A DNA stretch of 64,000 bases from Rhizophagus irregularis (taxonomy: Eukaryota; Glomeromycota; Glomeromycetes; Glomerales; Glomeraceae): the NCBI RefSeq assembly GCF_026210795.1, contig NC_089452.1, positions 2,046,001 through 2,110,000 on the forward strand. Reading direction: 5' to 3'. The translations under genes were made by a program, and so were the position numbers. Of the stretch, positions 5,761-61,457 are shown in pieces; position 1 is the first letter of the stretch, and every line of letters begins with the position of its first letter. The notes below the pieces were generated by a model, which made no database searches, had not been told where the DNA came from, and saw nothing but the letters and a program-made list of their open reading frames with translations.

Positions 5761-6006
5761 CACGAAGAAAGGAATCACTCATGAAGAAAGAAACCAACTA
5801 TGAAGAAAGAAACCAACTCACGAAGAAAGAAACCAACTCATGAAGAAAGAAATCAACCCACAAAGAAAGAAACCAACCCACAAAGAAAGAAAGAAAGAAA
5901 TCAACCCATAAAGAAAGGAATCAACCCACAAAGAAAGAAATCAACTCACAAAGAAAGAAATCAACCCATGAAGAAAAAAACAACTCACGAAAAGGAAATA
6001 ACTTAC
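5761..6006 (+). repeat. purine-rich minisatellite, about 20-bp unit
   Basis: About a dozen degenerate copies of a roughly 20-bp unit, AAAGAAAGAAATCAACCCAC with variants (CACGAAG.., CATGAAG..). The strand is strongly purine-biased. An open frame across it (5800-6024) encodes only a Lys/Thr/Asn/Pro repeat and is judged to be a by-product of the repeat. Confidence 0.85.
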
Positions 6007-6451
6007 AAAAGAACTGATTTATAAAAAGAAAAAAAAGTCTTAAACTGATTTATTACAAAAAAAATGAAACTAGTATCTACAAAAGCAAAAAAAATCTAGA
6101 ATCAATCTACAAAAAAAAGAAACTGAACTATCCTAATTTTTTTAAAGTAATAAAGGGAATAAAAAAACTAAAATTTATATAAAAGTAAAATAGCAAGAAA
6201 TAAAGAAATAAAATCAATTTTTTTTTTAAAAAAAAAGGAGGGTGATGAAGTTAGGAAAATGAAAAAGCTATTTTATCTTATGATAAAGGTTAAAGGGGGC
6301 AACTAAGTCAAAAAAAAAACATTTTTTATATGAACAAAGAAATTATTTTTTTTAAAAAAAGTAGCAAGTAGGAATAAAAGAATAAAATCATGAAGATAAA
6401 TAAAATGATAAATAAGAGAAAAAAATAAAATTTTTTGTAGTATTTTATCAA

Positions 6452-12742: not shown

Positions 12743-12970
12743 TTGAGTTTGCTTAAACTTGGAACTCATAAAAATCTTGATGTTGAATTTCATAATAAGA
12801 TCTGGGCTGAAGAATTATGGGAAGCCCAGAAATTAATTATTGATCAACAACGAAAAATAGAAGGAGTTGTCTTTGCAATATTAAAATACCCTACAGACTT
12901 TGAGAATAGCCTGTCCAATAAGGTTAATCAAATTATTAATAGCAGTATAAAGAAATTAGTTAATTCGTGA
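12743..12970 (+). pseudogene. ORF remnant interrupted by TTAA transposon
   Basis: A 75-codon frame with a normal coding composition (motifs such as HNKIWAEELWEAQKLI). It runs straight into the left target duplication of the transposon at 12960 and stops three codons later, inside the terminal repeat. It is probably part of an older retroelement ORF into which the transposon inserted. Function not recognised. Confidence 0.4.
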
Positions 12971-12976
12971 TCCGCC
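12964..12976 (+). repeat. left terminal inverted repeat, transposon A
   Basis: Thirteen bases identical to the reverse complement of 17211-17223, immediately after a TTAA duplication at 12960-12963. Confidence 0.85.
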
Positions 12977-13104
12977 TGTGAAACATAAAAAATTTGATAA
13001 ATTTATTAATGATCGGCGGTGATAATTGTTATATGAAAATTTGCTTCGCGTCTGAATCTCTCATTTCTTAAAATTACTAGCCTTTAAAAACCGCGTTTAT
13101 AACA

Positions 13105-16100
13105 ATGAACAAGTGTAAAAAATATGATGTTTCATTGATAAAAGTAGGAAAACTAGATGAAGAACTACATTTTGGAGCATTTGGACGTTTCTGGTGGAAG
13201 TCACGTGACAATATATTATATCCTATACGCTTAGAAATGAAAACCCTTGTCACACTTAATAAAACTCACTTTATAATTACTGTAGTTAAAGGAACTTCAG
13301 TTGCTGCCTTTCAACCTGGTTATATTTGTGAAGCAAATGGCATTACAAGTTCTGTTTACGATACTCCCTCTGGTGCGATTAACTTTTTATACCACATATT
13401 ATTCAGTTCAAAAACAAGATTTTCTGGTCCGTTAATATGTGGTTTTAATGATAAGGAAATTAACAAACGAATTTTGGATGATATTCCTTTTCAACCATTT
13501 ACAATAATGGTCGGTAATTTACAAATATTTATTGGAATGATTGGAGTTTCAGATCAGGAGAATTTGGGATATGTAGGTCCGGGATATTTGTCTTCTTTCA
13601 TTTATAGAGTTGGTGAAGAAAAAATTCGAACATTATTTGTACAGCAAATTCATCAGCGACATTGTTCTGTGGCTTTATACCAAGATGAGCGAATTAAATT
13701 AAAATATAGCGGAAAAAATCCAGTTGAAGTCTGGAAAGAAGTTTGGAAAAAAATTGAAGTGCTACAAAATTGGGATGGAAAAACTTTATTTGGTATTAAT
13801 CATGAAAAGACTCAAAATCTAGTGAATATTCTTCGAACGCCTTCTTGTACAATTAATGAATGGAACAATGAAATTATGATGACACAATTATATAAACAAC
13901 ATTTATATAAGTTTACCCCTGCCAGCATCCCTTGGTATGAATTTTTACTTAACTGGAAAGAGTATAAATGCAATATAATAGAACTATATAGCGCTCTTGA
14001 AAATATATATCCAGAAGAATATCAATTTAAAGAAAGAGAATTTCGTGCTTGGAAAGCACTACTACGTAGCGTTGGATGTACTAATATTACACCATTTGAT
14101 AAAGATAAATCGGATGTGAGTTATGTAATTGCTTTGGAAAAAAATTTTTTTTTATTTTATTAATAACGAAATAATTTTTTAGAAGGAATTTTGGACTAAA
14201 GCTGAAAATCCAATTGATGATAAGCATGTTCTTATCTATTTGTATGAGAATAATTTTCTTGATATGTCTCTCCCAGATGACAATCCTAATCCTATTGTGA
14301 ATAAATTTTGGTCTTGTTTTAACGAATCTTTAAAAGTGAACAAAAAAGGGATTGATGGAAAAAGAAGAATTCTATCAATAATTGCGGATGATTTTTCATA
14401 TGAAGAAATTAGGACAAACTTACTGGTTAGTTTATTGATTTACCCAGTTATTTTTTTTTTGTTACAATTTTACTTATCAATTTCCAATATAGGTCGCTCC
14501 TACTACAATTTTTGATGCTCGCAAATATGCTAGATTAAATGGTCCAGGCGCTAAGCAAATTGAGAAACCTATAAGAACAGTAGCTAAATTATCGCAAGAA
14601 AAACTGGAACAATTTAGCATTTTTTTTGAAGACAAAGCAAACGTTATTATGTCATCTTACAAATCAGATGCCAAAACTCAATTACCTGTTCTTTATCTAA
14701 AAAACACAAAAAAAGCACTTTGGGAGAAATTTCAGGAAACATATCCAAATGGTTTAAAAAGAACGACCTTTTATTGTCAGTTGGAAGGAAATCGCTACCA
14801 ATATCGTGAAGATATGGGAGGACTTTGTGCAATTTGTAATACTTATGGTTACGAAGTATTTGGATATTTGAAAAACCTAATTCAAAAAGAAGTTAGTTTG
14901 ATGGAAATTCAGGTAAAGTTAGATTAATAATTGATATACAAAACAAACAACTTATTAACTAAATAATTTTAGAATAATTTCATTCAACGCGCTGAGAACT
15001 TACAACGTTACCTTAAAAAATCATATGAACAAAAGTTCACAATATCAGAAAATGGTACAACCAGACATGATCCTTGCATTAATCATTGCTTGCTATACGC
15101 TTTTGGAACGTGTGATAAATTACATACTCAAATATGTAATGAATGTCAAGAGTTATTTACTTTCTTTAATGATCTCAAAAAAATTATTGGCTTGGATTCT
15201 CTTGACGATTTGAAAATATATGAAGAAAAGCTAATCTACTACCTATCGCATCAAACAAGAAAAGTTTACTTGAATTCTCAATTCAATGCAACAATATTAG
15301 AATTAGATGAAAAGGGGGCAATTTTCTTAGTAGATTATAAAATGAAAATCTTACCACAAACTGCAAGAGAAACAAAGCAAGATTTTTATGGTAAAAAAGG
15401 GTGGTCTTTGCATTCTGTTCTAGTTTATACAAAATCCAGTAACAGCCAAATCCGTATTGAAGCTTTTGATCACTGGTCGTGTGATGCAAAGCAGGACGCG
15501 TGGTTTACTGCTTCATCTTTACATGGGGTAATAGAAGTTCTTGATAAGAAGCCTGAATGGATAAGCATCATTTCGGACAATGGTCCCCATTATCACAATT
15601 CTGAATTGATGATAATATTGAGTTATTGGAAAGAATGGTACGATATAAAAGTAAATAAATGGGTATTTCTAGAAGCAGGAGAGGCGAAAACCTCTATCGA
15701 TTCCCATCATGCACAGGTATATAAAAGTTCTAAATTTATTCAAAATTTTCTTACTTTATTAATTGTTGAATTAAATAGATCTCACAATCAATCAAAAGGC
15801 GTGTTAAATTGGGATTTGAAATAAGGAATGGTGAAAATATTCAAGAAGCAATTGAAGATATTGCTGGAATTCGTGTAGCACATTTAGAACCTGATAGAGA
15901 TAATGGTAAATAATTTTTTTGTTAGAGAATTGATTTTATGCATAATTTAACGCACTATTTGAAATAATAAAGAAAATAAAGAAAATAAAGTAAAAACAAT
16001 TCCTGGAATTTCGAATTATTTTGAATGGAGGTGGCCAGAAGAAGAAGGATTAGATGGGTGTATACAAGCGAGAGCCTTACCTCACATTGGCGAATGGAAA

Positions 16101-16923
16101 ACCTTTACTCCAAATCAAATATCCAATTGGGCGAAAGCTGGAATGCACATGCCGCAACCTCAAATTTCCTTGCACACGACATCAAAATCCTCTTGGAAGA
16201 TACCAATGCCACATAGTTCAAGTAAGTGTCTTGATTACATTATACAAATAAAATCAGATAATTGATAAATCAAATTTATTTACCAGATATTGGTGTAAAG
16301 CGACTAAAGGTAAAACAACTGCAAGAGGAATTTGAAAATCGAGGAATAATGACAAATGAAAAAGAAAATCGTGCAGGAATGATTGAAATTTTAGAAAATG
16401 AAATAGCTAAAGAAATGCAAACCAAAAAAATTGGTAAGTTTAAAAAGTCAATTGTATAAAAGCGCCTAATAACAAGAATCTATTATAGATAACGAAGGGG
16501 GAATCTTAGGTAATATAACCAATACGTCATATGACAGGTAAAATAAAAAATTATAAAATATTCAATATCGCTTAAGAAGAAAAGTCTGATATTTGTAAAT
16601 CAAACAGCAACGTAAGTGCATTTCCTTTGCTATGTGGTTGGGCACTAAAGCATAATCAAAAATATGGTAAAAAGGGTTCAGGAAAAAGAATTGCACCTCA
16701 AGTTATAGCTTTATTAGAACGGTTCTTCTTGGATGGTAATGTTCACAAAAACAGAAGAATGAATGGGCATAATATGCGAGATAAACTAGTTGAAAAACAA
16801 GAAAACGGAGAATTAGCACGAGACATTGAAATTCCAGAAGTAACTTCTATTAATAATTGGATAGCAAGATTTGCCGCAAAGTCCAAAAAGGACTTATCTG
16901 AACAAGCTATAGCTGGTTTTTAA
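13105..16923 (+). CDS. DDE transposase with N-terminal FYR-like modules and SAP-like domain (copy A, intact)
   Basis: Nine exons: 13105-14115, 14183-14425, 14493-14912, 14973-15716, 15779-15905, 15973-16221, 16287-16433, 16489-16509 and 16577-16923. All introns are GT-AG and the product is about 1102 aa. The exon 6 acceptor and the small exon 8 are the least sure boundaries. Residues ~15-130 and ~135-245 each look like an FYRN-FYRC module: a YPIR/GYLSS start, then an aromatic strand, ending SGPLICGF and DGKTLFGI. A Cys/His cluster follows (GGLCAICN, C530/C533; then HDPCINHC..FGTC..H..CNEC, ~590-620). The catalytic core has VDYKM (D679), SDNGPHYH (D760) and FLEAGEAKT (E792), an RNase-H-like D-80-D-31-E. 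Exon 7 encodes a SAP-like helix pair (KVKQLQEEFENRGI), and a conserved domain ends the protein. By inference it cuts and integrates the element in the nucleus. The superfamily is not settled; the motifs do not look like piggyBac. Confidence 0.8.
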
Positions 16924-17210
16924 GTAGTTTGAGGCAAAAATTGTCGTTTTTCGTCATTCTTAATAATCAATAAAATACCTGGAATCTCACATTCCGGGAA
17001 GGCAAAGTCAAAAAATTTTTTTTAAATCGTTTCGATTAAATTCATAAAATAAAAATTCAGGATTTGTCACGTTATAATAAGGAGTTTTTTTTTTGTATTA
17101 CGCATTTAAGTCGTACTCATAACATGATCAATTTTTACAATTTGGAATCTTTTATTATATGATCGACATAAAATTCACCAAATTTGTCTAATTAATTTTT
17201 ATGGTTTATT

Positions 17211-17223
17211 GGCGGATCACGAA
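17211..17223 (-). repeat. right terminal inverted repeat, transposon A
   Basis: Exact inverted copy of 12964-12976, followed by TTAA at 17224-17227 (the other half of the target duplication). Confidence 0.85.
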
Positions 17224-17227
17224 TTAA

Positions 17228-18033
17228 TTAATTGTCAATTTACAAATAACATAATTTACTAATGGTTAATAATTATGAGAGATTTTGCTAAATTTATCAA
17301 TGGTGAAACTGTACAATCTTCAGATTTAAACACAATGGAGCATCTTTTGATGATATTTTTTAAAATAAGCTTTAAGAAAAATTTTTTTATAATTCTTGGC
17401 AGGTAGTGATTAATTTTCAATAGGTTTGCTGGGTGCTTAGCAGAGAAAGTTATGCTAGATACCTGGCAATTAATAGTTCGCTAGTGGTGATTTTTCTATG
17501 GATTCTCACCAGATGGTTGTTACCATTCATGCTCAAAATTTTTCATTTTCAATACAATATTAAACAGTAATAAACGTGCTTTATAGCCTTTGCATAATTA
17601 AATTATTTAAAAACCCTTTAGGAAAATTCAAAAGGTTTAGATGTTAATACATTTCAAAGTTAATTGAACACAAACCCTTATTCATAGGAAAACTACTTAA
17701 ATAATTGAGATTTCTGCATAAATTCTTTCAGAAATCGCTAATAATTAGCTCTTCTCTACATAGTTATCCAAGAAAATTCTGGGTTTCCAGATTTGTGAAT
17801 AATTTAAAAATATTCAAAATTCTATTAAACTTTTATTAAAAATTTGCCACTTTGCAATGGATTGGTTGAAAGGTTGAAATACAATAAATTATTTCCTTCA
17901 ACACCGATTAGACAAAACATTGTATTTACATTAAGGCCATTAGAATGTATCAGCAGTTATTTAGAAATTAGGTCCAGATTAGATATATATACAATACCAA
18001 GTATTTATTGTCAACTAATGTAATGGAAAAGAT
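17228..18033. other. gene-free stretch
   Basis: AT-rich sequence continuing the old element that transposon A interrupted. Nothing recognisable is seen, although 17900-18030 gives short Gag-like readings in several frames leading into the next remnant. Confidence 0.35.
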
Positions 18034-19237: not shown

Positions 19238-22020
19238 AAAAATATTTGAAATACTAGTGAAAGCAGCAAATAGTCTAAACTACAAAACATGAATTATAAC
19301 ATAAATAAGCAATAAAAAAAATAATAATAATTTGAGAAAACATGTGAACAAACTTTTCGTGTTTTGTTTTGTAATATTATTAAGTATTTTTAATAATTAA
19401 AGACGGCATTTTTGTGAAGATACTTTACCAATAACTTTTCTTCCAGCAAGTGAAAGTTATTCATCATTATATCAGTCATATAAATCAGCTATAGAGGATG
19501 ATATAACAAATTTTACAGATTTTTCCATGCTATTTAAATCAATATCTTGTAAATATTTTAGCACTTTTTACTTTACAATGAATTTTATTAAAATGCCATC
19601 TAATTACATAGGACAATGATGAATTATTATAATTTTTTGAAATCAACTAAGAAATTTTTTAAAACTACACAATTAGGAAAATATATAATTTAAAAGAAGC
19701 TTTCAGAAATATAATATTAAAAATATACCAGTAATTTGTCAGATCTTAGTTTTAATATGCCTGACAATTACATTAATGAAGATGGTACCAACAATAATAA
19801 TAATGACAAAGGATTTGAAAATTGTTGATAGCCTGAAGTCTGTGCGAGATATTTTAAATATATCTGTGAACTAGTCAATAATTATATAAAAAAAAAAATA
19901 CACACTTTGACAATGATACTTAATGCTATGTTTTTTTGGGTGCATTGATACTGTATACTGATACTGTATGTTTTGATACTGACAATATTAGAACAACTTA
20001 CCACTGCTGCTACCACCTCTCTGGCTGTTACTGCTACTCTTCCTCCAATCTCACAGCCAAATGTTATGAAATATTCTTAAGACAGCTAAATATTTGAAAT
20101 ACTAGTGAAAACAGCAAATAAGTTCTTAACTAATATGAATTATGAATTATAAATATAGTTAATAATATTTATAATTAATAATGATTATGATTAATAAACA
20201 CAATCAAAAATAATAAGAAAAAACACATGAACAAACATTTCATGTTTTATAGAATCTGGAATAACAAAGTTTACTAGATTTTTCCATGCTATTTAAATCA
20301 ATATCTTGTAAATCTTTCAGTACTTTTTAATTTACTATGAATTTTATTAAAATGCCATCTAATTACATGGATAATGATGAATTATTATAATTTTTTGAAA
20401 TCAACTAAGAAATTTTTTTAAACTATACAATTGGGAAAATATATAATTTAAAAGCTTTCAGAAATATAGTATTAAAAATATACCAGTAATTTGTCAGATA
20501 TTAGTTCTAATATGCTTAACAATTACATTAACGAAGATGGTACCAACAATAATAATAATAATGAAGGATTTGAAAATTGTTGATAGCCTGAAGTCTGTGC
20601 GAGCTATTTAAAAATATCTGTTAACCAGTCAACAACCATAAAAAATAACTCCAATACAATACACACTTTGACAGATACTTAATGCTATATGTTTTTTTGG
20701 GTGCATTGATATTGTATACTGATACTGGATGTTTCAATACTGACAATATTAGAACAACTTACTGCTGCTGCTACTACCTATCTGGCTGTTACTACTCCTC
20801 CTCCTATCTCATAGTCAAATATTATTAAATATTCTTAAGACATTTGCTAAATATTTGAAATACTAGTGAAAGCAGCAAATAAGTTCTTAACTAATATGAA
20901 TTATGAATTATAAATATAGTTAATAATATTTATAATTAATAATGATTGTGGTTAATAAACATAATCAAAAATAAAAATAATAAGTAAAAACAAGTGAACA
21001 AACATTTCGTGTTTTATAGAATCTGGGATAACAAATTTTACTAGATTTTTCCATGCTATTTAAATCAATATCTTGTAAATCTTTTAGCACTTTTTACTTT
21101 ACAATGAATTTTATTAAAATGTCATCTAATTACATAGGATAATGATGAATTATTATAATTTTTTGAAATCAACTAAGAAATTTTTTAAATTACACAATTG
21201 GGAAAATATATAATTTAAAAGAAGCTTTCAAAAATATAATATTAAAAATATACCAGTAATTTGTCAGATCTTAGTTTTAATGTGCCTGACAATTACATTA
21301 ACAAAGATGGTACCAACAAACAAAGGATTTGAAAATTGTTGATAGCCTGAAGTCTGCGCAAGATATTTTAAGTATATCTGTCAACCAATCAATAACTATA
21401 AAAAATAATTCCAATACAATACACACTTTGACAGATACTTAATGCTATATGTTTTTTTGGGTGCATTGATATTGTATACTGATACTGGATGTTTCAATAC
21501 TGACAATATTAGAACAACTTACTGCTGCTGCTACTACCTCTCTGGCTGTTACTACTCCTCCTCCTATCTCATAGTCAAATATTATGAAATATTCTTAAGA
21601 CATTTGCTAAATATTTGAAATACTAGTGAAAGCAGCAAATAAGTTCTTAACTAATATGAATTATGAATTATAAATATAGTTAATAATATTTATAATTAAT
21701 AATGATTGTGGTTAATAAACATAATCAAAAATAAAAATAATAAGTAAAAACACGTGAACAAACTTTTCGTGTTTTATAGAATCTGGGATAACAAATTTTA
21801 CTAGATTTTTCCATGCTATTTAAATCAATATCTTGTAAATCTTTTAGCACTTTTTACTTTACAATGAATTTTATTAAAATGTCATCTAATTACATAGGAT
21901 AATGATGAATTATTATAATTTTTTGAAATCAACTAAGAAATTTTTTAAACTACACAATTGGGAAAATATATAATTTAAAAGAAGCTTTCAGAAGTATAAT
22001 ATTAAAAATATATCAGTGAT
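19238..22020. repeat. tandem array of about 760-bp units, four copies
   Basis: The marker CCATGCTATTTAAATC occurs at 19525, 20284, 21051 and 21811, so the spacing is 759, 767 and 760 bp. Each unit begins near AAATATTTGAAATACTAGTGAAAGC and includes GGTACCAACAATAATAAT, GTGCATTGATA..GTATACTGATACTG and a CTGCTGCTACTACC tract. The first copy is longer and more diverged; the third and fourth are almost identical; the fourth ends abruptly at about 22020. Stops occur in every frame, so it is not coding as it stands. Confidence 0.88.
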
Positions 22021-27419: not shown

Positions 27420-27703
27420 AAAGAACGAGATTTTTTTTTTTTGTGAACAAAAAAATACGAAGTTTTTTTTTTGTGATGGCAAAATGGACAAAAAAATACG
27501 AGGTTTTTTTTTGTGGTGGCAAAATGAACAAAAAAATAAGAGGTTTTTTTTTTGTGATGGCAAAATGGACAAAAAAATACGAGGTTTTTTTTTTGTGATG
27601 GCAAAATGGACAAAAAAATAAGAGGTTTTTTTTTGTGGTGGCAAAATGAACAAAAAAATAAGAGGTTTTTTTTTTGTGGTGGCAAAATGGACAAAAAAAT
27701 ACA
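27420..27703. repeat. 40-bp minisatellite between convergent genes
   Basis: About six copies of a roughly 40-bp unit, GGCAAAATGGACAAAAAAATACGAGGTTTTTTTTTTGTGAT with variants (GGTGGC/GATGGC, ATGAAC/ATGGAC). It lies between the 3' ends of two methyltransferase genes that face each other. Open frames across it on the minus strand encode only a repeated hydrophobic/Lys pattern. Confidence 0.88.
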
Positions 27704-28217
27704 ATTTTATTTTACATTAATTATTATTAATTATTCTTTCTAATAATAGTAATTTCAAAACAATAAATGAATGTTACAAATATTTTTTTAAAGAGAGAGA
27801 GAAGAGTTATTTCTAATGGAACAAAAAAAAAAACAAAAAAAAGAAAAGAGGGAATAAGGACAGGGAAGATTTTTGTCGTGTTTTTTTTTGTTTTCTATAA
27901 TGTGAAATTTCGGTTATTTACAATATTTATATGTTATGTGAAAAAAAAAAGTATGCTATTATAATAAATAAAAATGAAAAAAAATGTGTTGGAAATATAT
28001 ACTATATACTTATATAAAAAAAATCTATAAAAAAAAAAATAATAATAATAAAAAAATAATATATATAAAATAATTTACAAAATATATATTCGATGTATTC
28101 GTGGATTGTTACTTTTCTTTTCTTTTTTTTTTTCCAGAAAGTTAAAAAAAAATTTTTTTAAACGAATGAAATGAAAAAATTTTTCTTTCTTGGAAAAATG
28201 AAGTTCAAAATGTTTTT
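27704..28217. other. AT-rich intergenic, 3' flank
   Basis: Homopolymer-rich sequence with A/T runs and no coding region. It holds the 3' UTR of the minus-strand methyltransferase that ends at 28218. I see no recognisable terminator or RNA gene. Confidence 0.45.
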
Positions 28218-44999: not shown

Positions 45000-45502
45000 T
45001 GACACCGCCCATAGGATAAATAACTATTTATTGTATGTTGCTACTGACGTGTTGAGTTCTTATATTATCTTCGCTTGGTTTAAAATAAAAAAAATTAGTT
45101 ACAAAACAAAATTTCTTACCAAAATTTCAAATAGCGATAATTTCCCCAAATTTAATATTATGAGCGAAATAAATTTAATTAATTTTTTTTTTTATATTAG
45201 AATCATTAATTATTAATCGTTGTTCATAGTGAAACTACTATGATAACTCTTTATTAATATTAATTTCATCCTGAGTCAAGACATAAAATCAAGACTGCGG
45301 AATTTCCTATCGAAATCCACTTGTATTTATACATTTTAAGAAAAATATTTTTAATATTTACTATCTTTTTCTAATAAAATATTATCATATGACTATCTCG
45401 TTACACTAAACTAAACTATAAATATAATTTTATTGGCTAATTATTTACCCATCGGTTAATTATTTATCCTTATTCTATTTTATTGTATTTTTGGTTATTA
45501 CA
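45000..45502 (-). repeat. 3' LTR of gypsy element
   Basis: Reads TGTAATAACC...GGTGTCA on the minus strand (TG...CA ends). It aligns over its whole length with 60914-61457, but lacks about 32 bp near its outer end (ATATGCATTTATAATATC.. in the other LTR) and a short GAAGATCT stretch. Confidence 0.9.
45324..45331 (-). promoter_or_regulatory. TATA box of LTR
   Basis: TATAAATA on the minus strand, present at the same place in the other LTR (61238-61245). It is a plausible core promoter for the retroelement RNA; position and conservation support it, but there is no start-site evidence. Confidence 0.45.
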
Positions 45503-45516
45503 TTTATCCTCCACTT
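45503..45516 (-). other. polypurine tract
   Basis: AAGTGGAGGATAAA on the minus strand lies directly before the 3' LTR, where the plus-strand DNA primer of reverse transcription is expected. Confidence 0.7.
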
Positions 45517-45566
45517 GAAAAATTTATGTCCCATAAATTAAGAATCAAACTCGGGTCTCAAACATA

Positions 45567-46790
45567 TTATATTATTATATATGGTTCAAATATTTCCCTA
45601 TCAAAATATTCTTTTAATAATTCTCCATTTACAGGTCTTCTTAAAATCCTCCCATCTAATTCTTTAATTTTGTATGATCCATTTATTATTACTTCGTGTA
45701 TATAATATGGTCCCTTCCATTTTTCTTCTAGTTTTCCTGTATGTGTTTTATATTTCGCCGTGTCAAAGTATAATACTTTATCTCCTATTTGAAAGTTTTG
45801 TTTTCATTTTCCAATTTTGTTATGATATTTCTTTTGTTGTTCTTGTGCTTTTTCAATATTCTTCTTTGCTTCATATCTTTTTATTGGTAATTCTTCTATT
45901 ATGTGTTCTATTCTTTTAATCATTGTAATTCCTTTAACTTCTTCATCATTTGGTAATATTACTCTTCTTCCATAAGTCAAATAAAATGGTGTCATTTTAC
46001 TTGATTTTTGTATTTTACTCCTATATGCAAATAATATTGGTGCTATTCTTTGATCCCAATTTTTATCTTCATATTCGCTATTTCTATATATCGTTAATTT
46101 TTCTTTTACTAATTTCACTAATGATTCTATTAATGTTTTATTAAATCGTTCTACTAATCCATTTGTTTTAGGGTGATAAGGAGTTGAAAATTTATGTTGA
46201 ACGTTAAATTTTTCGGTAAGATTTTTAGTTAATTGATTATTAAATTCTGATCCATTATCTGTAAGTATTTTCTTTGGACATCCATGTTGACAAATTATTT
46301 CTTCATAAATGAATTTTGATATTTCCTTTGCATTTGCTTCTTTTATTGCTTTTGCTTCTGGCCATTTCGTAAAGAAATCTATTGCTACTACTATGTATTT
46401 ATTTCCTTCTTCTGTTCTTGGTAATGGTCCTATTACATCTATTCCAATCATATGAAAAGGTTCTTTTACTTCTATTGGATGTAATTCATTTAGTCCTTGT
46501 GGATTATTTCTTCTTTGACAATTATCACAACTTTTTACATATTTTTCTATATCTCGTTTCATATTTTTCCACCAATATTTTTCTTTTACTTTTTCATATG
46601 TAGCTTGAATCCCAAAATGTGCTGATAATTCATGATCATGCATCATATACATTATTCCTTCTAATTCGAATCTTCTTATTACTCTAAACTTATTTTCGTC
46701 TTTAATTTTATATAAAACTCCATTTTCTTGTACATAATTTTCTTCTTTTTCTATATTCTTTAAAATTTTATCATATTCTTTTTCATCCAT
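45567..46790 (-). pseudogene. gypsy integrase, with one in-frame stop
   Basis: The N-terminal HHCC zinc finger is visible (HDHELSAHFGI ... CDNCQRR). The catalytic core has IGIDVIGPLP (D), ILTDNGSEFN (D) and GLVERFNKTL (E), the D-D-E triad of retroviral-type integrases. The first 328 codons are open (46790-45807). A TGA at 45806-45804 then interrupts the frame, but reading continues through GDKVLYFDTAKY and EEKWKGPYYIHEVI (the GPY/F module) to TAA at 45569-45567. No chromodomain is seen after the module. A frame break upstream separates it from RNase H. Confidence 0.88.
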
Positions 46791-46984
46791 TTATTAATAA
46801 ATTTTCTATTTCATTTTCAAATGGTAAAATAAATTTTATTTCTTTATCTTCAAATAATATGCAATGATAATTTATATTTGTATGAATTATGAATACATAT
46901 ATTTCTAATCCTATTCTTTCAACCATTTTTAATTTTATTTATCTCATTATTCATTATTATTTATTATTTTTAATTTTATCCTTC

Positions 46985-47428
46985 TCATATTAACCTTGAC
47001 ATTGCATCAGCGTTTTTATTTTCTTTTCCTGGTCTATGTATTATTTCAAAATCATATTGTTGTAATTCCATCATCCATCTTCCTCTTCTTCCTTTAGGAA
47101 CTTTTAATGTACTTATAAATCCTTTTAATGCTGCATGATCTGTTATTACTTTAAATTTTCTTCCAAATAAATATTTATGAAAATATTTTATTCCCCAAAA
47201 TACTGCTAAACATTCTAATTCTGTTATCAGATACCTCTTTTCTGCATTTACTAAACTTCTACTCGCATAACTAATAACTATTTCTCTATTATTTTCATCT
47301 AATTGTTCTAATATAGCTCCTAATCCTTCTCCTGATGCATCTGTTATTAATATAAATTCTTTTTCAAAATTCGGATGTTGTAATATTGGATAATTTATTA
47401 ATTTTTCTTTTAATTCTTCTAATGCTTT
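46985..47428 (-). pseudogene. gypsy RNase H, frame-shifted from RT
   Basis: After the RT frame ends at 47419, a one-base frame change brings a reading through FILITDASGEG (D), LITELECLAV (E), VITDHAALKG (D) and NADAMSR (D) to TGA at 46987-46985. These are the four acidic residues of RNase H. The region between RNase H and integrase (46791-46984) is also frame-shifted and gives no motif. Confidence 0.85.
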
Positions 47429-48411
47429 TGTTGTTTATCTGTCCACACAAAAGGAACATTCTTTCTCATTAATTCCATTATTGGTTTTACTATTTTTGAA
47501 TATCCTTTTACAAATTTTCTATAATATGAACATAATCCATTTATTTCTCTTATTTGTTTGATATTCTTTGGCAGTTTTAAATTTTTAATCTTTTCTATTT
47601 TCTTATCATCTGGTTTTAACCCATCTGTTCCTACTATGTGTCCCAAATATTCTACATTCTTTTTCGCCCATTCACATTTCTTTAATTTTAACATCATATT
47701 TGCTTTTCTTAATTCTTCTAATACTATTTTTATATGTTGTAAATGTTCATTCCAATTTTTTGAATATATTATAATATCATCTATATATACATTCATAAAT
47801 TTATCTAAGTATTCTTTAAATATTTTATTCATTGTTCTTTGAAATATTGCCGGTGCATTTTTTAATCCAAACGGCATAACATTAAATTCATATAATCCTT
47901 GACTACAAATAAATGCTGTCTTTTCTCTATCTTCTTCTTTCATCTCTATTTGCCAATATCCACTTGCTAAATCAATTGTTGTAAACCATTTTGCTACTCT
48001 AAATTTTTCTAATAAGTCATCTATTCTTGGCAAAGGATATGCGTCTGTTATCGTCATTTGATTTATTTTTCTAAAATCTATACAAAATCTTTTATCTCCT
48101 GTTTTCTTATTTACTATTACTACTGGTGATGACCATGGACTATATGATTCTTGTATTATTCTCTCTTTTAACATTTTGTCTATTTCTCTTTTTATTATTT
48201 CTCTATTTTCTGTACTTTCTCTATATGCTTTTTGATTTATTGGCATTTCATCTTTTAACCTTATATTCCATTTTACTATATTTGTTTTACTTATTTTCTT
48301 ATCTCCATATATACAAATATCTTCATATTCTTTAACTAAATCTTTTAATTTTTTTTCTTGTAATTTCTCTAAATCTTTATATTTTATTTCGTCTGTCCAA
48401 TCTTTATGCAT
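47419..48411 (-). pseudogene. gypsy reverse transcriptase
   Basis: An open frame of 330 codons covers the whole RT: the VVIVNKKTGDKRFCIDFRKI fingers block, FTTIDLASGYWQIEM (first catalytic Asp), VMPFGLKNAPAIFQRTMN, and NVYIDDIIIYS (YIDD catalytic box), then the thumb (VEYLGHIV) up to PFVWTDKQQ. The domain looks intact but is cut off from protease (frame change near 48465) and from RNase H (frame change near 47428). Plus-strand open frames here are antisense shadows. Confidence 0.92.
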
Positions 48412-48443
48412 CTTTAATGTCTCTCCATTATTATGGCCAAGAC

Positions 48444-49004
48444 CTAATAGTTTTCCTCTATGATATGTCCTTTTTCTTCATTATTTATTAAGTATATTTC
48501 TTGTTCACTTATTTTTTCATATTCATTTTCACTATCTTCATCTTCACTATCATCATTATCATTATCATCATCAATATCTTCATCATTATTTTCATATTTT
48601 ATTGGTATTTCAATATCTTTTCCATTTTCTCTTAATATTAATGTCTTTTCATTATAATCGATTATTCCTTTCTTTTCTCTTAATACATCATTTCCTAATA
48701 TTAATTCTTTTTCTACTGATTTGATTACGTCCATAATTATTTTCATTTCTGTATTTTCATCTATTTCTATTGTTATTTCTATTTTTCCTTTTGATGCAAC
48801 TCTTGTTCCGTTAGCCATTACAAATCTAATATCACTTTTTTTTATTATTGGAATATTTAATTCTTTTCTTAATTTATCTGATATTAAACTGACTAATGCT
48901 CCTGAATCTATTATTATTGATATTAATTTTCCTTTTATTATAACTTCACTTCTCATTGCTCTAGTTTCACTTTTATTATCTATACTTTTTATTGGTTGGT
49001 CCAA
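48444..49004 (-). pseudogene. gypsy aspartic protease
   Basis: The active-site loop reads ISIIIDSGALVSLIS (DSG, as in many gypsy proteases), and a second loop ILGNDVLREK follows. A highly acidic linker (runs of D and E, about residues 140-170) comes after. The frame is continuous with the preceding zinc-knuckle segment except for a TGA at 49013-49011, three codons upstream of this open part. Confidence 0.85.
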
Positions 49005-49128
49005 GTGTAGTCATACACTATTATATCCATCATAATCTCTAGCTATTTTTCTAAATTTTGGATTTTCATTATAAATTTGCCTATATGTTATATTTGCGTT
49101 TTCATTAAACATATCCATTACATATTTT

Positions 49129-51682
49129 GAAGGGGAACTCTTCCTGACGATCTTTCGGACCAAAATTTTACGAAAGAAAAATTTTATTTTATTTGACAAA
49201 ACAATTAATAAAACATAACTTAAAATAACAAAAATGGAAGAAGAAACTCTCAAACAATACATGAACGAATACTATAGAGGCTTTACAGGTTTTGAGTTGG
49301 AACACTTAGAAGACTTCGCAAAATGTTTAAAAGAATACAAAGAATTTAATCTAGCAGACTACGAGATAGCACATTTGGATAACGACATTTTATTTCCGCC
49401 AGGTGATATTAAAATAGGAGTCCGAGATGCCAGAACAACATCCAAGAGCAATATAAGCAAAAAGATTTTAATGGATATCGCAGTCTTCACAATGAAAATG
49501 GGCGGCGAAAACGTTAAAAGAATTTTAGAAACAATCCTCTTGGAAAAATCTTGCAAGGACACAGCAACAACAAAAGACGCAACAGGCGAAAATACAACAG
49601 AAAAAGAAATAGATAGAGAACTAATTTCAAATTTTGTAAAAGAATATATGTTCTCATTTTATAAAAATTTTTTTGAGTTCGAGAAACAACATGTAGATGA
49701 CTTTGTAACAGCTATCAAAAATAAAGAGCAAGTCAACTTGGTAAATTATGAAACAGAACATTTAGATGAAGATTTACTCATAAGAAGGGGAAGGACGCCA
49801 CAAGGAGTTAGAGACAAAGAAAAAAAAATGGGTGTCGATGTAATCAAAGACAATCTAATGGATATAGCGGCCTTTACAATAAAAAAGGGTGCAGCCATTA
49901 CTACGAAAATTTTGATTTCACTAGGTTACGACCACTTCGAAAATCTTCAAAGAAAAGACGCTGCAGTAGAAGAATTAAGAAAGACAAAGGATGAATTAAA
50001 TTCCCTATTAGCTAAACACAAAGAAGACAAAGAAAAGATAGACGATTTAGAAAAGGAAAAAAAGATAGCAGATGAATGAATAAGAAGTCTAGAAAATGAG
50101 ATGATAAAATTAAAAGAATCAGAGAAGAAAAAGATAACGAGTGAGAATACTATATCAAGTAAGCCGGAAAGTAAGACAAAAAGCCACAATCGACGAAGAA
50201 AATCAAAAAAAAGAAATCATCTACACAAGAAATCAAAAAGGGGAAGATCACCAAAATTCCGGTTCAAACAACTTCTGATGATGATTATCTGAAAAAACAT
50301 TTTTCCGAAAGATCACGTGACTTAAAATTTTATGATTTTCCAGCTTATTGGAAGGACAATGAAATTTATGATTCTTTAAAACAAGTAGGATATATAGAAA
50401 GATTAGAGTGCAAATGGAATTACAAATATAGGACTGTTCGAGCTAGAATTCGCCTTACAACAGAAATGGAAGAAATTTTCGTCAAAGGTGGATCTAACAT
50501 AGCGATCAAGAAAAAAGATCAGTACTATTTTTTTAGGATGTTCGACGCAAAAATGAGCACCACAGATATAAAGAAAAGATATGAATGGCAAGCGTATAAA
50601 AAATTTATGGATTTACCAGGGAGGTCAGAATATGAAGGAATAAAAGCTGAGAACTTGAAATACGGTGGTCATTTTTCAAAAATTATCAAAATAAACAAAA
50701 TCAAATATATTTTGATATATTTTAACAACGAAAGTGATTTACTAAGAGCAATTTATAAATCGACAATGGAAGAAGACAACATGGAAAACGGTCTGAAGAT
50801 TAAAAGTCAAGACGAACTGATCAGCGAAAATGGAACTTACAAAAAACGTTTTGGTATTAACAAATTTAATATCCCACAAAAACCAAAGGACGGATTTGTT
50901 GATGTACCTACTGATCTAATCTCAACGATTCCAAGATCTTCAGAAGAACACGAAGAGTTAGATAATTTGAACAACAATTTTAAAGAAAGATTAGAAGAAT
51001 TAAAAATGACAACAACAGCCACGACACAAAGAAAAGGGAAAAAAAAAGTAACTGAGCTATCGGATGATGATGTTGAAGAAAAGAAAAATGAAAACAAAAA
51101 GCGTGTAGTGCGAAAGCAGGGAGAAAGGGAAAATTCTGATATAGAATGAACAAATTATCCCCATAAATTTTAACAATCTTGAAATTTATTTTTAGAAGAA
51201 CGTTACTGGAATTTGATCAAGTTGCTACTTAACAATAGAGAACTTGTTAAAGTAAAAACGTTGATATTTTCCGCGATAGTATAGTTTTTCTTTCTTAATT
51301 TTCAAGACAGAATTTTATTTTGCTTTATTTTTATCGCTTTTAATGTAGTTTAAATCATTTAGTTTTTATTTGAAATTTCTTCACAATTAATTTGATTGAA
51401 TTTAAAATAGTAAAGCCTCAAAACATATAAAATAGCAAAAACCAAAAAACATCGTAAAATACTAGTACAGTAGCGTATTTGGAAACAATATATTTATAAA
51501 ATCGAACACAATGTATTAGTTTAGATTTTATATTAATAGTTATAGTCAGATAAATACTCAGTTATAGGGTTTAGAAAGTCTTTGTACTTCTTTGCTCTAG
51601 GTGCTTTTGTATTGGTTACCAGATTTTAAATCGATTTTAACTAATAAAGCGCGTTACTGTTTAAAAAAAAAAAAAAAAAAAA
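49129..51682 (+). mobile_element. poly(A)-tailed retroposed insert with 16-bp target duplication
   Basis: ATCCATTACATATTTT occurs at 49113-49128 and again at 51683-51698, right after a 20-base A tract (51663-51682). That is the signature of LINE-type target-primed reverse transcription of a polyadenylated RNA. The insert is 2.55 kb and intronless, with a 5' UTR of about 105 bp, a coding part (49234-51149) and a 3' UTR of about 510 bp. No reverse transcriptase is encoded, so it is a non-autonomous copy or a processed gene mobilised by a LINE. It interrupts the gypsy gag/protease frame and is therefore younger than the gypsy insertion. Confidence 0.88.
49234..51149 (+). pseudogene. LINE-ORF1-like RNA-binding protein, one stop and one frameshift
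   Basis: The coding part would be about 637 aa. Residues ~1-110 and ~130-240 are a tandem duplication (compare FTGFELEHLEDFAKCLKE..ADYEIAHLD with FFEFEKQHVDDFVTAIK..VNYETEHLD, each followed by GVRD and LMDIAVFTMK/LMDIAAFTIK). A charged coiled coil follows. It contains a TGA at 50077-50079 and, further on, an eight-A run (50206-50213) where one base must be lost or gained to continue. The C-terminal half has two RRM-like folds: FYDFPAYW..YRTVRARIRL, then YYFFRMFDAKMS..KYILIYFNN. It ends in a basic tail at 51149. Such RRM-like proteins are typical first ORFs of LINEs in this fungal group, as far as I recall. Confidence 0.6.
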
Positions 51683-51891
51683 ATCCATTACATATTTTTC
51701 TGGTGGTACATTAACTCGTACTCTAATATCTTTATTTCCTCTTTTCATTCCTGGATTTGGACATTCTTTTATAAAATGACCTTTTGCTCCACATCTTTCA
51801 CAACGATTATGTCTTCTTCTTGCTTGATACGCTTTATCTCTATCTTCTTTATTAGAAAATCCTCCTTTTCTTTCACCATCGATATCCATTT

Positions 51892-54800
51892 TCATGTCAT
51901 ATTCTCTTTTGGCGGTATTGGAACATCTTCAATTTCCATTTCATTATAGTCGTCATTCAAATTTCTATTATATATTTTACCACTTCTTAAAGTTGGATAT
52001 ATTTTTTTTTCATAATTATATATTTCGTAATTATTATAATTTTCATTATCATTATATCTATTATTATCCATTAAATTTACATTTCTATTATTATCATTAT
52101 TTCTTCTTTCATTACTATTATTTCTATTAAAATTATTTTGCGTTCTATAATTATTTCTTTGTCTTAATTGTGGACATTCTGGTCTTATATGACCTACTTC
52201 ATTGCATTCATAGCATCTCATAATTCTTGCATTTCTTGTATTTGTATTTCTATTTATATTTCTTCTTTGTTGATTTCTTATTTCATTTAACATTTCTCCC
52301 ATAGCTATTTTTTCTGCTCTAAATTGTTCTAACGCTTTACTTAATTCATCAATATCTTTTTCATTAACTGGCTTTTGCATTTTTTTATATATTTCATTTT
52401 CTTCTTTTTTATTCATTTCTTCTTTTAAAATTTCTTCTATATTCTTTTCTTGTCTTATTTGTTCTATATTTACACCCATTGTTTTCATTATCAATTCATT
52501 TTTAGCTTCTTCTTCTCTTCTTGCTATATTAATCGCATTATTTAAATTCGTTGAATTACTTCTTCTAACTTGGTATCCTAATGTAGGTTCTAATCCTTGG
52601 ATATAATAATTTACTTGATACATATCATGTAATGCTTGACCTCTAGTTGCAATTCTTAATATTGACCTAAACCTTCTAGTATACTCTTCAACACTTTCAT
52701 TTTTTTCTTGTTTAATCCTTGTTAATTCTATCATTTTTCTTCTTTTAACATCTTCTCTAGTGAATCTATTAATTAATTTGTTTTTCAAATTTCTATCATC
52801 ATCATGATTACACCAATTTACTAAATTAGCTGCTACTCTTTCTTTTTCTTCATTATATCATTGTAATGCGATTCCTCTTAAACATGTTATTGCTATATTT
52901 GCTTTATTTTGTCTACATACACCTCCTCCAATATTTCCTTCTAGTCTTCCACTTACTGCAAATGCTACTTCAAATTGTCTAATCCAATCGTTAACATCTT
53001 CATCTTCTTTTCCACTAAAAGTTGGCATACCTACTATTCCTCCCATTCCTGCAGTTTGAACTATATCTGTTAAAGTTTGTCCTGCTCCTAATGCATTATC
53101 TAATGCATTAGGTGCGAGTCCTATAGCATTTTCTACTATTCTCTTTATTTGATCTTGGTTTGCCATATCTAACAATATATTCTCTTGAAATAAATCTTGT
53201 AAATTATAATCAGATATTTCACTTTCACTATCAGAATCTTCAATATTCAATGAATTATTCGAATCTGAATTTTGACTTAAACCAAAACCTTTTATATTTA
53301 TAACATTTTCATTTTCACTCTCAAATTCATTCTCATCAAAATCTCTAACATTTTCTTCCCAATTCTCATATTCTTCTGGATCTAATATTTCTCCAATCTT
53401 TTCTGAATCATCCGTATCATCATTTTCTTTTTCAATTTCTTCTTCACTTTCTTCAATTTCAAATTTCTTTAAATATTCATCTAATATTTTCTTTATTTCC
53501 TTTTCTGACTCATTTTTATATTCTTGAAATAATTTTATAAAGTCTGCACTTAAGATATCAATATCTCTATATTCCATACTTATTAATCTTAATAATTCTC
53601 CATCAGAAACTTCAATTTCTAAAACTTTAATTAAGTTTTTCAATCGTTCTAATCTTTTTTCTATTTCTGTTTCATCATCCAATTCATTCTCATCTTCTAA
53701 ATTTTCTAATCCTTTTTCATAACAGCTTTTACATATCCTTTCTATAAATTCTCTATTGTATTCTATTGCTTCTATTGCTTCTTTCTTTAATATTATTTTG
53801 TTACATATTGGACATTTTATTGTATACATATAATGCCATATTCTTAATTCTTCTTCTATTCCTTTATCATCTAATTCTTCAATAGTTTTGTAAAAACTCA
53901 TAAATTCTTTAGTTTTTATTATTTCATATTCCACTCTAAAATTTATTATTCGTCTTATTTCTTCAATATCAATTTCATAACCATTCTCTAACCAATAATT
54001 TCTGTATATTCTTTCTATATGTTCGTCTCCTTCATTTGAACTTGATTCTTCTACATCATCTGAACTTTCTAGTTCTCCTACGTCACTATATTCTTCAACA
54101 AAACCTTTTGTTTCTACAATTTTCTCTATTATCTTATCTGTTAAATCATCATTTATCCATGGTTTTGGATATTTATTTCCATCCCACCATTGATATGTTA
54201 TACTTTTCTGAAACTTCTTGACTTTCTCTCTACTTTCTTCTTCTGCTATATTTTCTTCTAAATGTACTAATATTTCTTTAAAATTTCTCATAGTACCATA
54301 TCCTTTATTCTTAATAGTTATTGATTCTATTTCTTGTAACCATTCTTCAAATTTTGCGAATCTTATATCTAATTCATCATCTTCTATGATATATTTATAT
54401 GTCAACAATTCTTTATTCCCTAATAAATTTTCTTCTGTTTGATTGTCTAATATGAACTCGTTATCTTCACTAAGTATATAATGTTCACATATCATTTTTA
54501 TTATTGATATAATTCCTATTTTTCTATAATCTGATTTGTTTCTATACCTGATTGAGCTCACAACTATATCTAACAGCTTTTCTCCTTCTTTTCTCATTTT
54601 CTTAAATTCTCTATCTCTTTTCTTTTTACTAGATGGATAATTTTCTTCTCCATCCTTTCTTGTTAATATTATATATTCCATTAATTTCACATACGTGTTT
54701 CTATTATAACTCATTGCTTCTAGTATTACCTTTTGAAAAATTTTCCAAAATCTTTTAAACCAATCTCCTATCTCTATTTCATCAGTACTATAACATTTTA

Positions 54801-54900
54801 AGCATGAAGGATCTACTTGATATTTTTCTCTTGATTCATTATGTTTCTCTATTTCATGTCTTTTTCTAATCTCTTCTAATTCATCGTATATATCAGACAT
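51892..54900 (-). pseudogene. gypsy gag with long N-terminal extension and one in-frame stop
   Basis: The frame runs 1002 codons from 54900 to TGA 51894-51892, with one internal TGA at 52860-52858 (codon 681). The core Gag region is in the second part: FSGKEDEDVNDWIRQFE, then after the stop VEEYTRRFRSIL and YYIQGLEPTL (retrotransposon_gag pattern), followed by a CCHC knuckle (CYECNEVGHIRPEC). The first ~580 residues are an unusual acidic extension. It has a CLKC near residue 33 and a zinc-ribbon-like pair, CPIC at 363-366 and CKSC at 390-393, and ends in Glu/Asp/Ser-rich stretches. The start at 54900 is the first ATG and is preceded by an A/T-rich leader. TGG or CGA to TGA would explain the internal stop. 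Confidence 0.8.
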
Positions 54901-55782
54901 TTTTATTTATTTAAACATTTCATAATTTCATTTTTATTTATATTTTATAAAATTTTATTATTAACTTAACATCATTTAAACTACTATTTTATCTTTTACT
55001 TCTTTAAAATACAATTTAAATTCTAATATTTTCAAAGTTCCAGCTTTGATTCTATAATTTTCTATATATTCTATAATGTAATTTATAATCACGATTTTAT
55101 TTATAAAATTCCTATATCTTGCGCAAATAAACTGTGATCAAAGCTAGGGATTATTTATAACTGGGGCCGCCCAGTATCAGACTAATATGATCACCGACAA
55201 AATAAAGGCTTATTTATACTGGGTCCTCCCAGTGTGCTCTTATTTATACTGGGGTTCTCCCAGTTCTATACACAAAATTAAACTTTTAATAACTTTTAAT
55301 CTTTTTCTTATATTAACTTTCAAAATATTTATTTCAAATCTATTTCATATTATTTTATTTCTCATATTTCATTTTATAATTCATTAATATTCTCTTATTA
55401 TAATTGGATAGCCACGGATTTTTAAGCGATCAACATACTAAAATTTCTGTCAACAAACGCCCCTGGTGACACAACTATTTATTCTATTATTTCCTTATTC
55501 ATTTATTATTTTTATTAATCAGTCGCCCCTGCCCAAGGAGCCGCTATATTTTTCTTTTACTGCGCCTCAATTGCGTGACTTATATTTTCTTTTATTTTCT
55601 TTTCTTTTACTGCGCTTCACATGACTTGTACTACTCACGTGACTTATGTAACATTTCATTTTCTACTGCGTTTTGATCATGTGATTTTTACTGCGCTTTT
55701 TAACACATGACTTGTCGCAGTATAATTCTCATTTTATTTATTCATTTCTGTAACTGAACTCATGTTCTCTCTTTCTGATTAA
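54901..55782 (-). other. gypsy leader, 3' part
   Basis: Non-coding leader between gag and the inserted transposon; it continues on the other side at 60115-60913. It contains three tandem hairpins (55160-55264), annotated separately. CACGTGA/CATGTGATT-like motifs recur near 55630-55720. No coding region. Confidence 0.6.
55160..55264. repeat. three tandem CTGGG/CCCAG hairpins in the gypsy leader
   Basis: ACTGGGGCCGCCCAGT (55160-55175), ACTGGGTCCTCCCAGT (55218-55233) and ACTGGGGTTCTCCCAGT (55248-55264). Each has a perfect 6-bp stem with a 4-5-base loop, and each is preceded by TTATTTATA. The stems are conserved while the loops differ, which suggests structure is kept. In the element's RNA (minus strand) they form equal hairpins. 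Confidence 0.75.
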
Positions 55783-58700
55783 GATCCGATTCGCGTATGA
55801 ACTACAGAAAATTACTATATAAATTTGGGGAACGGTTATTATAAAAATGGCAAAATTGGCAAAATATTACAGATTATAAAAACCGCAGATGATCACGCTG
55901 TAGCACCAAAATTCACGTGATGAAACCTTAAATGCTAAAGATAATAATGATCAAAAAAAATCGGGAGTTTTATTTATTTCTTAAAAACTTTATTTTGAGG
56001 CAGCGTCAGATTTGGCGGAAATATATATATATGTATTTGCAATGTTTAAAACACGCACTATGATTATTTTTTATAAATTAACAAATAAAAACAATTAGAA
56101 CTATATTTTACACATTTTTATACGTTTAGAACTGTTTGTTTTATACAATTATTTCATTTTCTCTTGCCTCTAATTCACGTATTGCCATGATTTCTTTCCA
56201 TTTTTGGGAGAAACCAGTAATCCAATTCTGAATAGTAGAGATTTTAGGTACATCATTTTCGTCTAATTCTCCAAGTTGAACACGTCGCACAAGTTCCTCA
56301 TACATTTGTTGAGCTGAAAATTTGTTATTTGGATTTGCTGTTCCGGTATGAAACATATTTTCTAATAAATGTTTCGCACTTTTAGATATTCACTTCCATG
56401 ATTCCCGCTTGTAATTCTTGTTAGATTTTAGGGCCCACCCAGATACAAATACATCGTGACTATTGTTGTCAAACAAAACCAATTGTTAGTATAATTGATT
56501 TATAAGCTTTTATTATAATAAAATATCTTACATTTGCTTTTTTGAACTTCCTATTACATTTGTAATATCCATACTATTCAAACTTGAATTCAAAAGATCC
56601 TATATATTGAGTAGTTTTTATTTTTGTGAAAAAAAAAATTTTTTCAATTTTAAATTGTTCATACCAATTCCAAAAATTCATCATTGGTGACAGAATCATC
56701 TGGATCACGAAATATTATTAGTTTCATGGGGAATTTGAAATAAATGCAAAAAACTATCATACCTTTACTGACAACAATAGGTAACGTCCATTTTTTAGAT
56801 GGTTCTGTATGAGTAGAATATTCTGGATTGGGCTTTTCATTTTTTCTCTGCTTTCGAATTTTTTTTATTTGAGCTGGAGACCATTTCTTCCATTCTCCAA
56901 TTCCAGGCAAAATCCTAGCACATACGAATCCTGTATCCTCTCCTTGAGCTGGCCACGTCCATTCATGTAGACTTTTAATTCCAGCTATTGTACCAATTTT
57001 TTCTTTTCCTATACGAAATAAATATTATTACTGACAAACAAAAATATTGTACATAATTTCTTCAATTATTGAAATACCTTGATTACGATTTGGCAGCAAG
57101 TTGGCAACTTTTGTTCCTGCAATATCATGAATTGCTGCCTCTATATCATCACCAGATTCAATTGTACAACCCAGTTTGACATGACGTTTTATTGCTTGTG
57201 ATATCTAATAGGAATAAATCAAAGGTAAACAAAATAATAATAGAATTTATAATAAATGAAGTAAGCAATATAATAACTACTTGAGCGTGATGGGAATCTA
57301 TCAGTGTTTTAGCCTCACCAGCTTCCAAAAAGATCCATTTTCGAGGAACAATATCATACCATTCTTTCCATTGACCTATTATCAGCATCAATTCTGTACA
57401 ATGATAGTGAGGCCCATTGTCCAACATTATTGTTATCCATTTTGGCTTTGGATCAAGATTTTCAAACACGGTATGAAGAGAAGATGCTGTAAACCAGGCA
57501 TCTTGGCCAGTATCGTCACTCCAATGGTCATATACTTGTATATCAAGCTTGTTATTTGTAATATCTTTTGTATATACTAGTGATGAATGTAGAGTCCAAC
57601 CCCTTTTACCAAAGAATTGAGATTTTGTTTCCCTTGCAGTGTGCGGAAGTATCCTCATTTTATAGTCCACTATAATAACTGCTCCATCTTCATCTAACTC
57701 ATCAAGATTAACCTGAACGTGAGTATTTAAATAAAACTTTCATGCATGATGTCCTAACCATGAAATTAATTTTTTCAAATAATCATCTAATAATTCATGT
57801 AATTCTTCATCTACCTGATTTTTTATTAGATCAAAAAATTGGAATAATTCTACACAATCGTTACATATTTCAAAATGCTGAAGATTACAAATTCCAAAGG
57901 AATGGCTAAGGCAATGGCATATGCAAGATTTATGTGCCAGAATTCCTGAAGAGGTAATTTTCAAATTCTTTATGTATTCACGCCTCATATATCTTCTCAA
58001 AATATTCAATTTTCGAGTTAACTCCTCCTGCATTATAGAATATGATTAATTTCAATATCAAATTTCTGAATACAAAAAATTCTTGAATATAATACCTTCA
58101 AAGATTCATCTTCTACATGAGTAGCAATGATGGTATTAATAGACGCAAAGCTCTCATATCCACATTCATTGCATTCTGAGCAAAGACCACCTAAATTATC
58201 TTGATAAACAAATCTACTACCTTGTAAACGTGTCATAAATGCTGTATGACGCATTCCATTTGGATACTCTTCAGAAAATTTCTCCCAAAGAGCCTGCTTA
58301 TGGTCCTGTAAATACATTATAGGTAATCCTGATTTTAAATGAGTTCGGTAAGAGCTCATGTTGACAATATCCTTTCTCATGAAAAAACTATCAAACTGAT
58401 CAATTTGCTCTATTTTAAACTTTAGACGATGAAATTTTGGCTTTTCAATAGGTGGAGCACCAAAACCATTCAATACAGCATGTCTTCTTGATTCAAGAAC
58501 GGTATAAGATGCTACCTGTAATATTAGATAATTAGTTATTGCGTTCAAAATTACTGCCAATATTATGCTAATTACAAAAACATATTCTTACCCCTAAATT
58601 ATATTCTAATTCTTCATAGGTAAAATCATTGGCAATAATTGATAAAATACGCCATTTTCCATCTCTGGTTTTTTTATTATCATCCAATGCTTGTCAAAAA

Positions 58701-60110: not shown

Positions 60111-60114
60111 TTAA

Positions 60115-60913
60115 ATATTTTTTTACATTTTTATATATTGTTTACACAACATGCTTACGCAATTTCTTTTTATTTTTATATTACATCATTATTACATCAT
60201 TTATTTCATATAATTTATTATTATCTTTTATAATCTCTCATATCGTTCTTTTATTGTAATAAAATTATTTTTCATATATCAAATAATAACATTTCATTAT
60301 TTCTTATATTTACAATATCATTTAATTTTCTCTTTCATTTAGTAACCTATACCGGGCTTGCCTTTACCTTCTTTATAGAAGTATAGTAGTTTACGGGTTT
60401 GTTACTAATAACTTTTCTTTTCTTATTATACTTTTGAATTTTTCAATCATTTATTAACTTTTTATAATACACAAAATTTATTCTTATTATAAATTTTTAT
60501 TTTCATTTAATTTTTAAATCTTTTCATTATTATCTTGAATATTTCATTCATCCTTTCGATATATACTTTTTCAATATATCGTATATTTTCATTTAATTTT
60601 ATTTCTCATATATTCCGTAATATTCCTTTTTCATAATATTACTTTCTCTTATATATTTTCTTTTACTATATCCTTTTTCATATATAGTAACATTTTTCTC
60701 ATATTTCAGATAAGTCTTCCTTATCTTTTTCATTTCTTTGATGATTTCTCATATCATCCTTTTCTTATCTTTGATGATTTCTTATATCATCCTTTTCTTA
60801 TTAATTTCACAAAATTTTCTTTCATTTTCTTATATAATTTTCTTTTATTTCTCATTTAGATCTTGTATGAAGACAACAATCTTTTAATTTCTCACGAGCA
60901 TGCACCAAAAATG
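60115..60913 (-). other. gypsy leader, 5' part
   Basis: Non-coding, AT-rich, with repeated CTTTTTCATATA-type motifs. It belongs to the leader next to the 5' LTR. The stretch next to the LTR (60907-60888 on the minus strand, TGGTGCATGCTCGTGAGAAA) begins with TGG five bases inside the LTR and may be the tRNA primer-binding site; I cannot name the tRNA. Confidence 0.5.
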
Positions 60914-61457
60914 TGACACGCCGCCCATAGGATAAATAACTATTTATCGTATGTTGCCACTGACGTGTTGAGTTCTTATATTATCTTCGCTTGGTTTAAA
61001 ATAAAAAAAATTAGTTACAAAACAAAATTTCTTACCAAAATTTCAAATTGCGATAATTTCCCCAAATTTAATATTATGAGCGAAATAAATTTAATTAATT
61101 TTTTTTTATATTAGAATCATTAATTATTAATCGTTGTTCATAGTGAAACCACTATGATAACTCTTTATTAATATTAATTTCATCCTGAGTCAAGACATAA
61201 AATCAAGACTGCGGAATTTCCTATCGAAATCCACTTGTATTTATACATTTTAAGAAAAATATTTCTAATATTTACTATCTTTTTCTAATAAAATTTGAAG
61301 ATCTATTATCATATGACTATCTCGTTACACTAAACTAAACTATAAATATAATTTTATTGGCTAATTATTTACCATCGGTTAATTATTTATCCTTATTCTA
61401 TTTTATTGTATATATGCATTTATAATATCATCTTTAAATTGATTTTTGGTTATTACA
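60914..61457 (-). repeat. 5' LTR of gypsy element
   Basis: Minus-strand ends TGTAATAACC...CGTGTCA. It is nearly identical to 45000-45502 apart from a 32-bp extra segment, an extra GAAGATCT and scattered substitutions. The TATA box lies at 61238-61245. Confidence 0.9.

Follow-up and report, generated by a model that had tools for sequence, protein, structure and literature searches.

What kind of mobile element occupies a TTAA site on contig C24 of the fungus Rhizophagus irregularis, and has it moved recently? The window analysed here is a 64,000-nucleotide stretch (C24:2046001-2110000) of a genome of 146.7 Mb in 32 contigs, and the element, at 12964-17223, spans 4,260 bp with TTAA outside either end. 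We consider it, with a probability of about 0.9, to be an autonomous class II DNA transposon that acts at TTAA and encodes a transposase with an RNase H (DDE/D integrase) fold, with splicing and fold predicted and catalysis presumed. Its inverted repeats, TTCGTGATCCGCC, are perfect over 13 bp on the left (12964-12976, plus strand) and right (17211-17223, minus strand). On the left an imperfect extension reaches to about 12991, and complementarity of the two ends covers 38 nt at 87% (12954-12991 versus 17196-17233). The repeat has two matches at up to two mismatches, compared with a mean of 0.10 in shuffled sequences, one in 100 of which reached two. Genome-wide, the 13-mer occurs 41 times and TTAA plus the 13-mer 40 times; the reversed-pattern control returned 0 in each case. 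An earlier note on this DNA had described an apparently complete TTAA transposon with perfect 13-bp inverted repeats. That structure is borne out, and other genomic copies with the same ends and flanks exist.

The TTAA flanks (12960-12963 and 17224-17227) represent a true 4-bp target duplication. Of the perfect 13-mer ends, 40/41 adjoin TTAA. The exception belongs to a short copy on C8 whose two flanks both read ATAA in direct orientation, so that they form a duplication and not an inverted repeat. This copy also rules out the alternative that TTAA is part of the inverted repeat and the duplication a 2-bp TA. Joined flanks of eight insertions, the first eight of 15 joined sites, were compared with the genome itself (40 of 411 candidates scored), and for five of the eight, uninterrupted matches span the junction. 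When 12 such paralogous places were fetched, 10 carried one TTAA in register. The clean places include one on C28 for the copy on C22 (218/220 identical) and five for a second, diverged, TTAA-bounded family member in the window (55779-60114, 4,336 bp, minus strand). It is because of these 10 places and the ATAA/ATAA copy that we regard the duplication as genuine, and the duplication at the window element is drawn from them. Among 35 distinct ends, 29 have T as the second base outward of TTAA (p = 6e-7 relative to local composition, for the best of 12 positions), so the preferred target site may read ANTTAANT.

Between these ends lies a predicted gene of nine exons on the plus strand, encoding 1,101 amino acids from a start at 13105 to a stop codon ending at 16923. 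The model is the longest frame among the GT/GC..AG intron combinations tried near eight positions, and alternative acceptors give variants of 1,094-1,100 amino acids. The predicted exons lie at 13105-14115 (exon 1), 14183-14425, 14493-14912, 14973-15716 (exon 4, the putative catalytic core), 15779-15905, 15973-16221, 16287-16433 (exon 7), 16489-16537 (exon 8) and 16608-16923 (exon 9, with the stop codon). The frame does stay open across the eight predicted introns, as the earlier note had reported with a product of 1102 residues. Exon 7 looks SAP-like by eye; the Pfam scan found no SAP match on the window protein, and PF02037 is precomputed on one relative only (P0090).

Structure models of two relatives contain an RNase H/integrase fold bearing the conserved acids, which in window numbering are D679 (15333-15335), D760 (15576-15578), E792, E795 (15681-15683) and D801 (15699-15701), all in exon 4. 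DDE/D transposases and integrases are characterized by an RNase H-like core that carries three conserved acids, and the models point to such a core here. The last two acids are separated by 34-40 residues, and in this spacing and in the predicted core fold the family resembles retroviral and LTR integrases with their transposon relatives IS481EU and Ginger, from which it differs in its strict TTAA target and in matching no chain of the Protein Data Bank (PDB) at E <= 10. Another PDB sequence search returned nothing meaningful (three antibody chains, best E 0.059). A viral structure library gave no match at E <= 0.001, and none of 24 pattern matches in viral contigs is a relative. The top whole-protein Foldseek match, acetyl-CoA carboxylase (E 3.1e-4), was judged an artefact that arises when a model of 1,067 residues is aligned. 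The model of one relative (P0033) has an FYR-like N-terminal fold, whose counterpart would be encoded by exon 1. Pfam FYRC scores 12.2 bits on that exon, under the cut-off of 21, and is absent from the scan of the full-length protein; among the matches listed, 3 of 26 relatives match it at E <= 1 (best 4.6e-4).

Two further full-length copies exist in the genome, on C19 (99.98% identical) and C22 (99.8%). The C19 copy is intact and differs from the window copy at one of 4,268 bases, whereas the C22 copy (L062) has seven substitutions and one deleted base. A database protein, GLOIN_2v1884984, carries residues specific to the C22 copy; its model skips the stretch that holds a stop codon and starts exon 8 at a later acceptor, and its first exon is readable from DNA on the left side of the insertion. 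From its sequence, this protein looks to be a gene model pieced together round a broken transposon copy, with an upstream exon borrowed from flanking DNA. Substitutions relative to 12960-17227 of the window are mostly C-to-T or G-to-A, both in the C22 copy (6/7) and in another decayed copy, L063 (71/81). In the latter, CpG is over-represented (23/71 changes, where CpG makes up 176/1,309 C-dinucleotides). This decay fits deamination of methylated CpG, and CpG methylation is among the features reported for R. irregularis transposons (PMC8647823).

Short relatives of about 0.5 kb share the same ends. At nine places both perfect ends lie 495-514 bp apart including TTAA, and eleven short copies compared (487-506 bp) are 93.6-100% identical. 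They align to the long element only over about 31-60 bp at the ends, and their interior is unrelated. They look like non-autonomous partners of the long element.

The wider family is much larger. The exon-4 frame has 139 genome matches (38-100% identical), a number that is a lower bound for the family although some matches are pieces of one copy, and exon 1 has 122. At 12 exon-4 loci chosen for having no stops, the synonymous rate (pS) exceeds the nonsynonymous rate (pN) for all but one of 66 pairs; for that pair both round to 0.00, and most pairs are near synonymous saturation. Purifying selection acts across the family, and these rates indicate that it is old, diversified and coding. The second window element has 54-nt inverted ends, 89% complementary and starting TTAAGATCCGATTCGCG; its subfamily is represented by three end pairs in the genome (up to one mismatch), of which C24 holds two and C28 the third. 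A third subfamily (L009/L011, two paralogues compared) is likewise bounded by TTAA and reads TTAATTCGTAATTCGG going inward. Three protein searches yielded 90 matches, the best 120 of 201, and 95 matches; the lists of 90 and 95 are complete but rest on shared 5-residue words. Every relative with a named organism, among the matches listed, belongs to Rhizophagus, Diversispora, Gigaspora or Entrophospora. The family is probably confined to Glomeromycota as far as these searches reach, and weaker relatives beyond the best 120 of 201 may possibly lie outside.

Several observations weigh against reading the window element as an autonomous, recently active transposon. The C22 copy is broken: its codon 617 is a stop, and its 1-nt deletion shifts the frame. 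A fourth copy, on C19 (97.5% identical), is interrupted and decayed, with ends 7.4 kb apart, one mismatch in the left end and exon 1 in two pieces. In view of these two copies, movement may have come to an end. The search of joined flanks found no empty site for the window element itself; 2 of the 12 empty places lack a clean TTAA (L089 reads ATAA, L091 is ambiguous), and the empty sites could also be old precise excisions. Both structure models are of relatives rather than the window protein; the long one has a pTM of 0.50, and in Foldseek comparisons with Hermes the TM-scores are low (about 0.15). Finally, E792, E795 and D801 are all conserved candidates for the third catalytic residue.

If the element is nevertheless an autonomous transposon, the spliced 1,101-residue transposase would bind both inverted ends, cut the element out and join it to both strands of a TTAA site at points staggered by 4 bp. 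Repair by the host would convert this stagger into the TTAA duplication. The same transposase probably moves the short copies in trans. Transposition is probably cut-and-paste rather than copy-out.

Where does this transposon belong? The transposase matches no family model tried and may represent an unnamed DNA transposon lineage: no transposase model was among the Pfam families listed for the exons, the spliced protein and 26 relatives (25 of 38 matches listed for the relatives). One published curation of R. irregularis, in the portions available, used profiles of Kolobok, piggyBac and Sola-1 to -3 in its screen and names Sola-1, Sola-2, Transib, Plavaka and others but no TTAA family (PMC11075540). 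By title or abstract we found no publication describing the family, a weak negative given that subscription literature and Repbase fall mostly outside the coverage. The lineage is probably undescribed. That it is a new superfamily-level lineage of eukaryotic DNA transposons, restricted to Glomeromycota, whose TTAA targeting evolved separately from that of piggyBac and Kolobok and whose transposase bears an FYR domain of the chromatin type, is a possibility to which we lend slightly less than even credence.

A competing placement, somewhat more doubtful, makes the family a divergent branch of Sola related to Pfam DUF7869 proteins. The genome has 21 DUF7869 matches, and the four fragments read show CDN...GHTKxxxD where the family has SDN...GEAKTxID; a D-N pair is thus followed by GxxKxxxD about 40 residues on, with 41 residues between the two D in the fragments and 40 in the family. 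However, profile similarity to this stand-in is not significant (hhalign E 0.27 and 0.18; 60/200 column-shuffled controls scored equally high). The placement also presumes that DUF7869 belongs with Sola and that Sola3 uses TTAA. We know of no FYR-like N-terminus in Sola. The 4-bp duplication, DDD-compatible acids, size and short inverted ends all fit the available part of a published Sola description (PMC10741241).

A different alternative concerns activity: the element might be a fixed remnant that has lost mobility. Arguing for this, the frame is disrupted in one full-length copy out of three, and a fourth copy shows heavy C-to-T decay. Counter to this, two intact copies one base apart sit at unrelated sites and the short copies are near-identical. 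We consider a remnant unlikely. The window element is a recently active DNA transposon, as the earlier note's phrase "potentially active" anticipated, and present activity is plausible.

Membership in Kolobok is highly improbable, although the family shares with it the 4-bp TTAA duplication and short relatives with the same ends. The accessible parts of published accounts report Kolobok from fungi, with a 5'-RR..YY-3' rule for its termini (PMC9587614), and list an ATAA flank for one Xenopus copy (PMC6004289). Against this, C/DxxH between the second D and the last acid is found in none of the 54 rows holding both D (of 62), the window protein has no THAP match at E <= 5, and the termini of the window element and of L009/L011 are TT..AA. 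An exception is the second window element, which starts with GA; the termini depart from the rule in two of the three subfamilies seen. We gave no weight to PF20700, a possible proxy for Kolobok, which has seven genome matches, none at the family's places. Of the earlier suggestion of a "Kolobok-like or new superfamily" element, the first half fails on motif and termini and the second is not proved.

The chance of a piggyBac element is negligible: despite the TTAA duplication and the ATAA flank of the C8 copy, which parallels an alternative target given in the portion seen of one report (PMC8634313), PF13843 (DDE_Tnp_1_7) has no match in the nine-exon window protein at E <= 5, while its 28 matches elsewhere in the same genome, a positive control, include none at the family's exon-4 or exon-1 loci (compared by eye). 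This profile result agrees with the earlier view that the product is not piggyBac. The ends of the window element presumably differ from piggyBac ends as well.

Repeats make up about half of the R. irregularis genome, and until the 2024 curation two-thirds of the transposable elements were reported without a class, according to the available portion of that study (PMC11075540). The present family, with 139 exon-4 matches that include several pieces of single copies, gives this dark fraction a unit with exact ends, a target rule and a coding model. If it does sit outside the superfamilies known so far, TTAA targeting has originated more times than had been assumed. R. irregularis is hard to transform, and an element of this kind, recently mobile at TTAA and accompanied by matching short copies, might serve as a tagging tool there.

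Other repeats share the window. A Gypsy-like LTR element occupies 45002-61416, with genes on the minus strand and near-identical LTRs at 45002-45493 and 60918-61416 (ungapped pieces 96-100%); the second TTAA transposon is inserted into its 5' part. At 19304-21982 a ~760-bp unit is repeated in tandem about 3.5 times, and minisatellites with units of ~20 bp and ~41 bp lie at 5763-6018 and 27444-27768, respectively.
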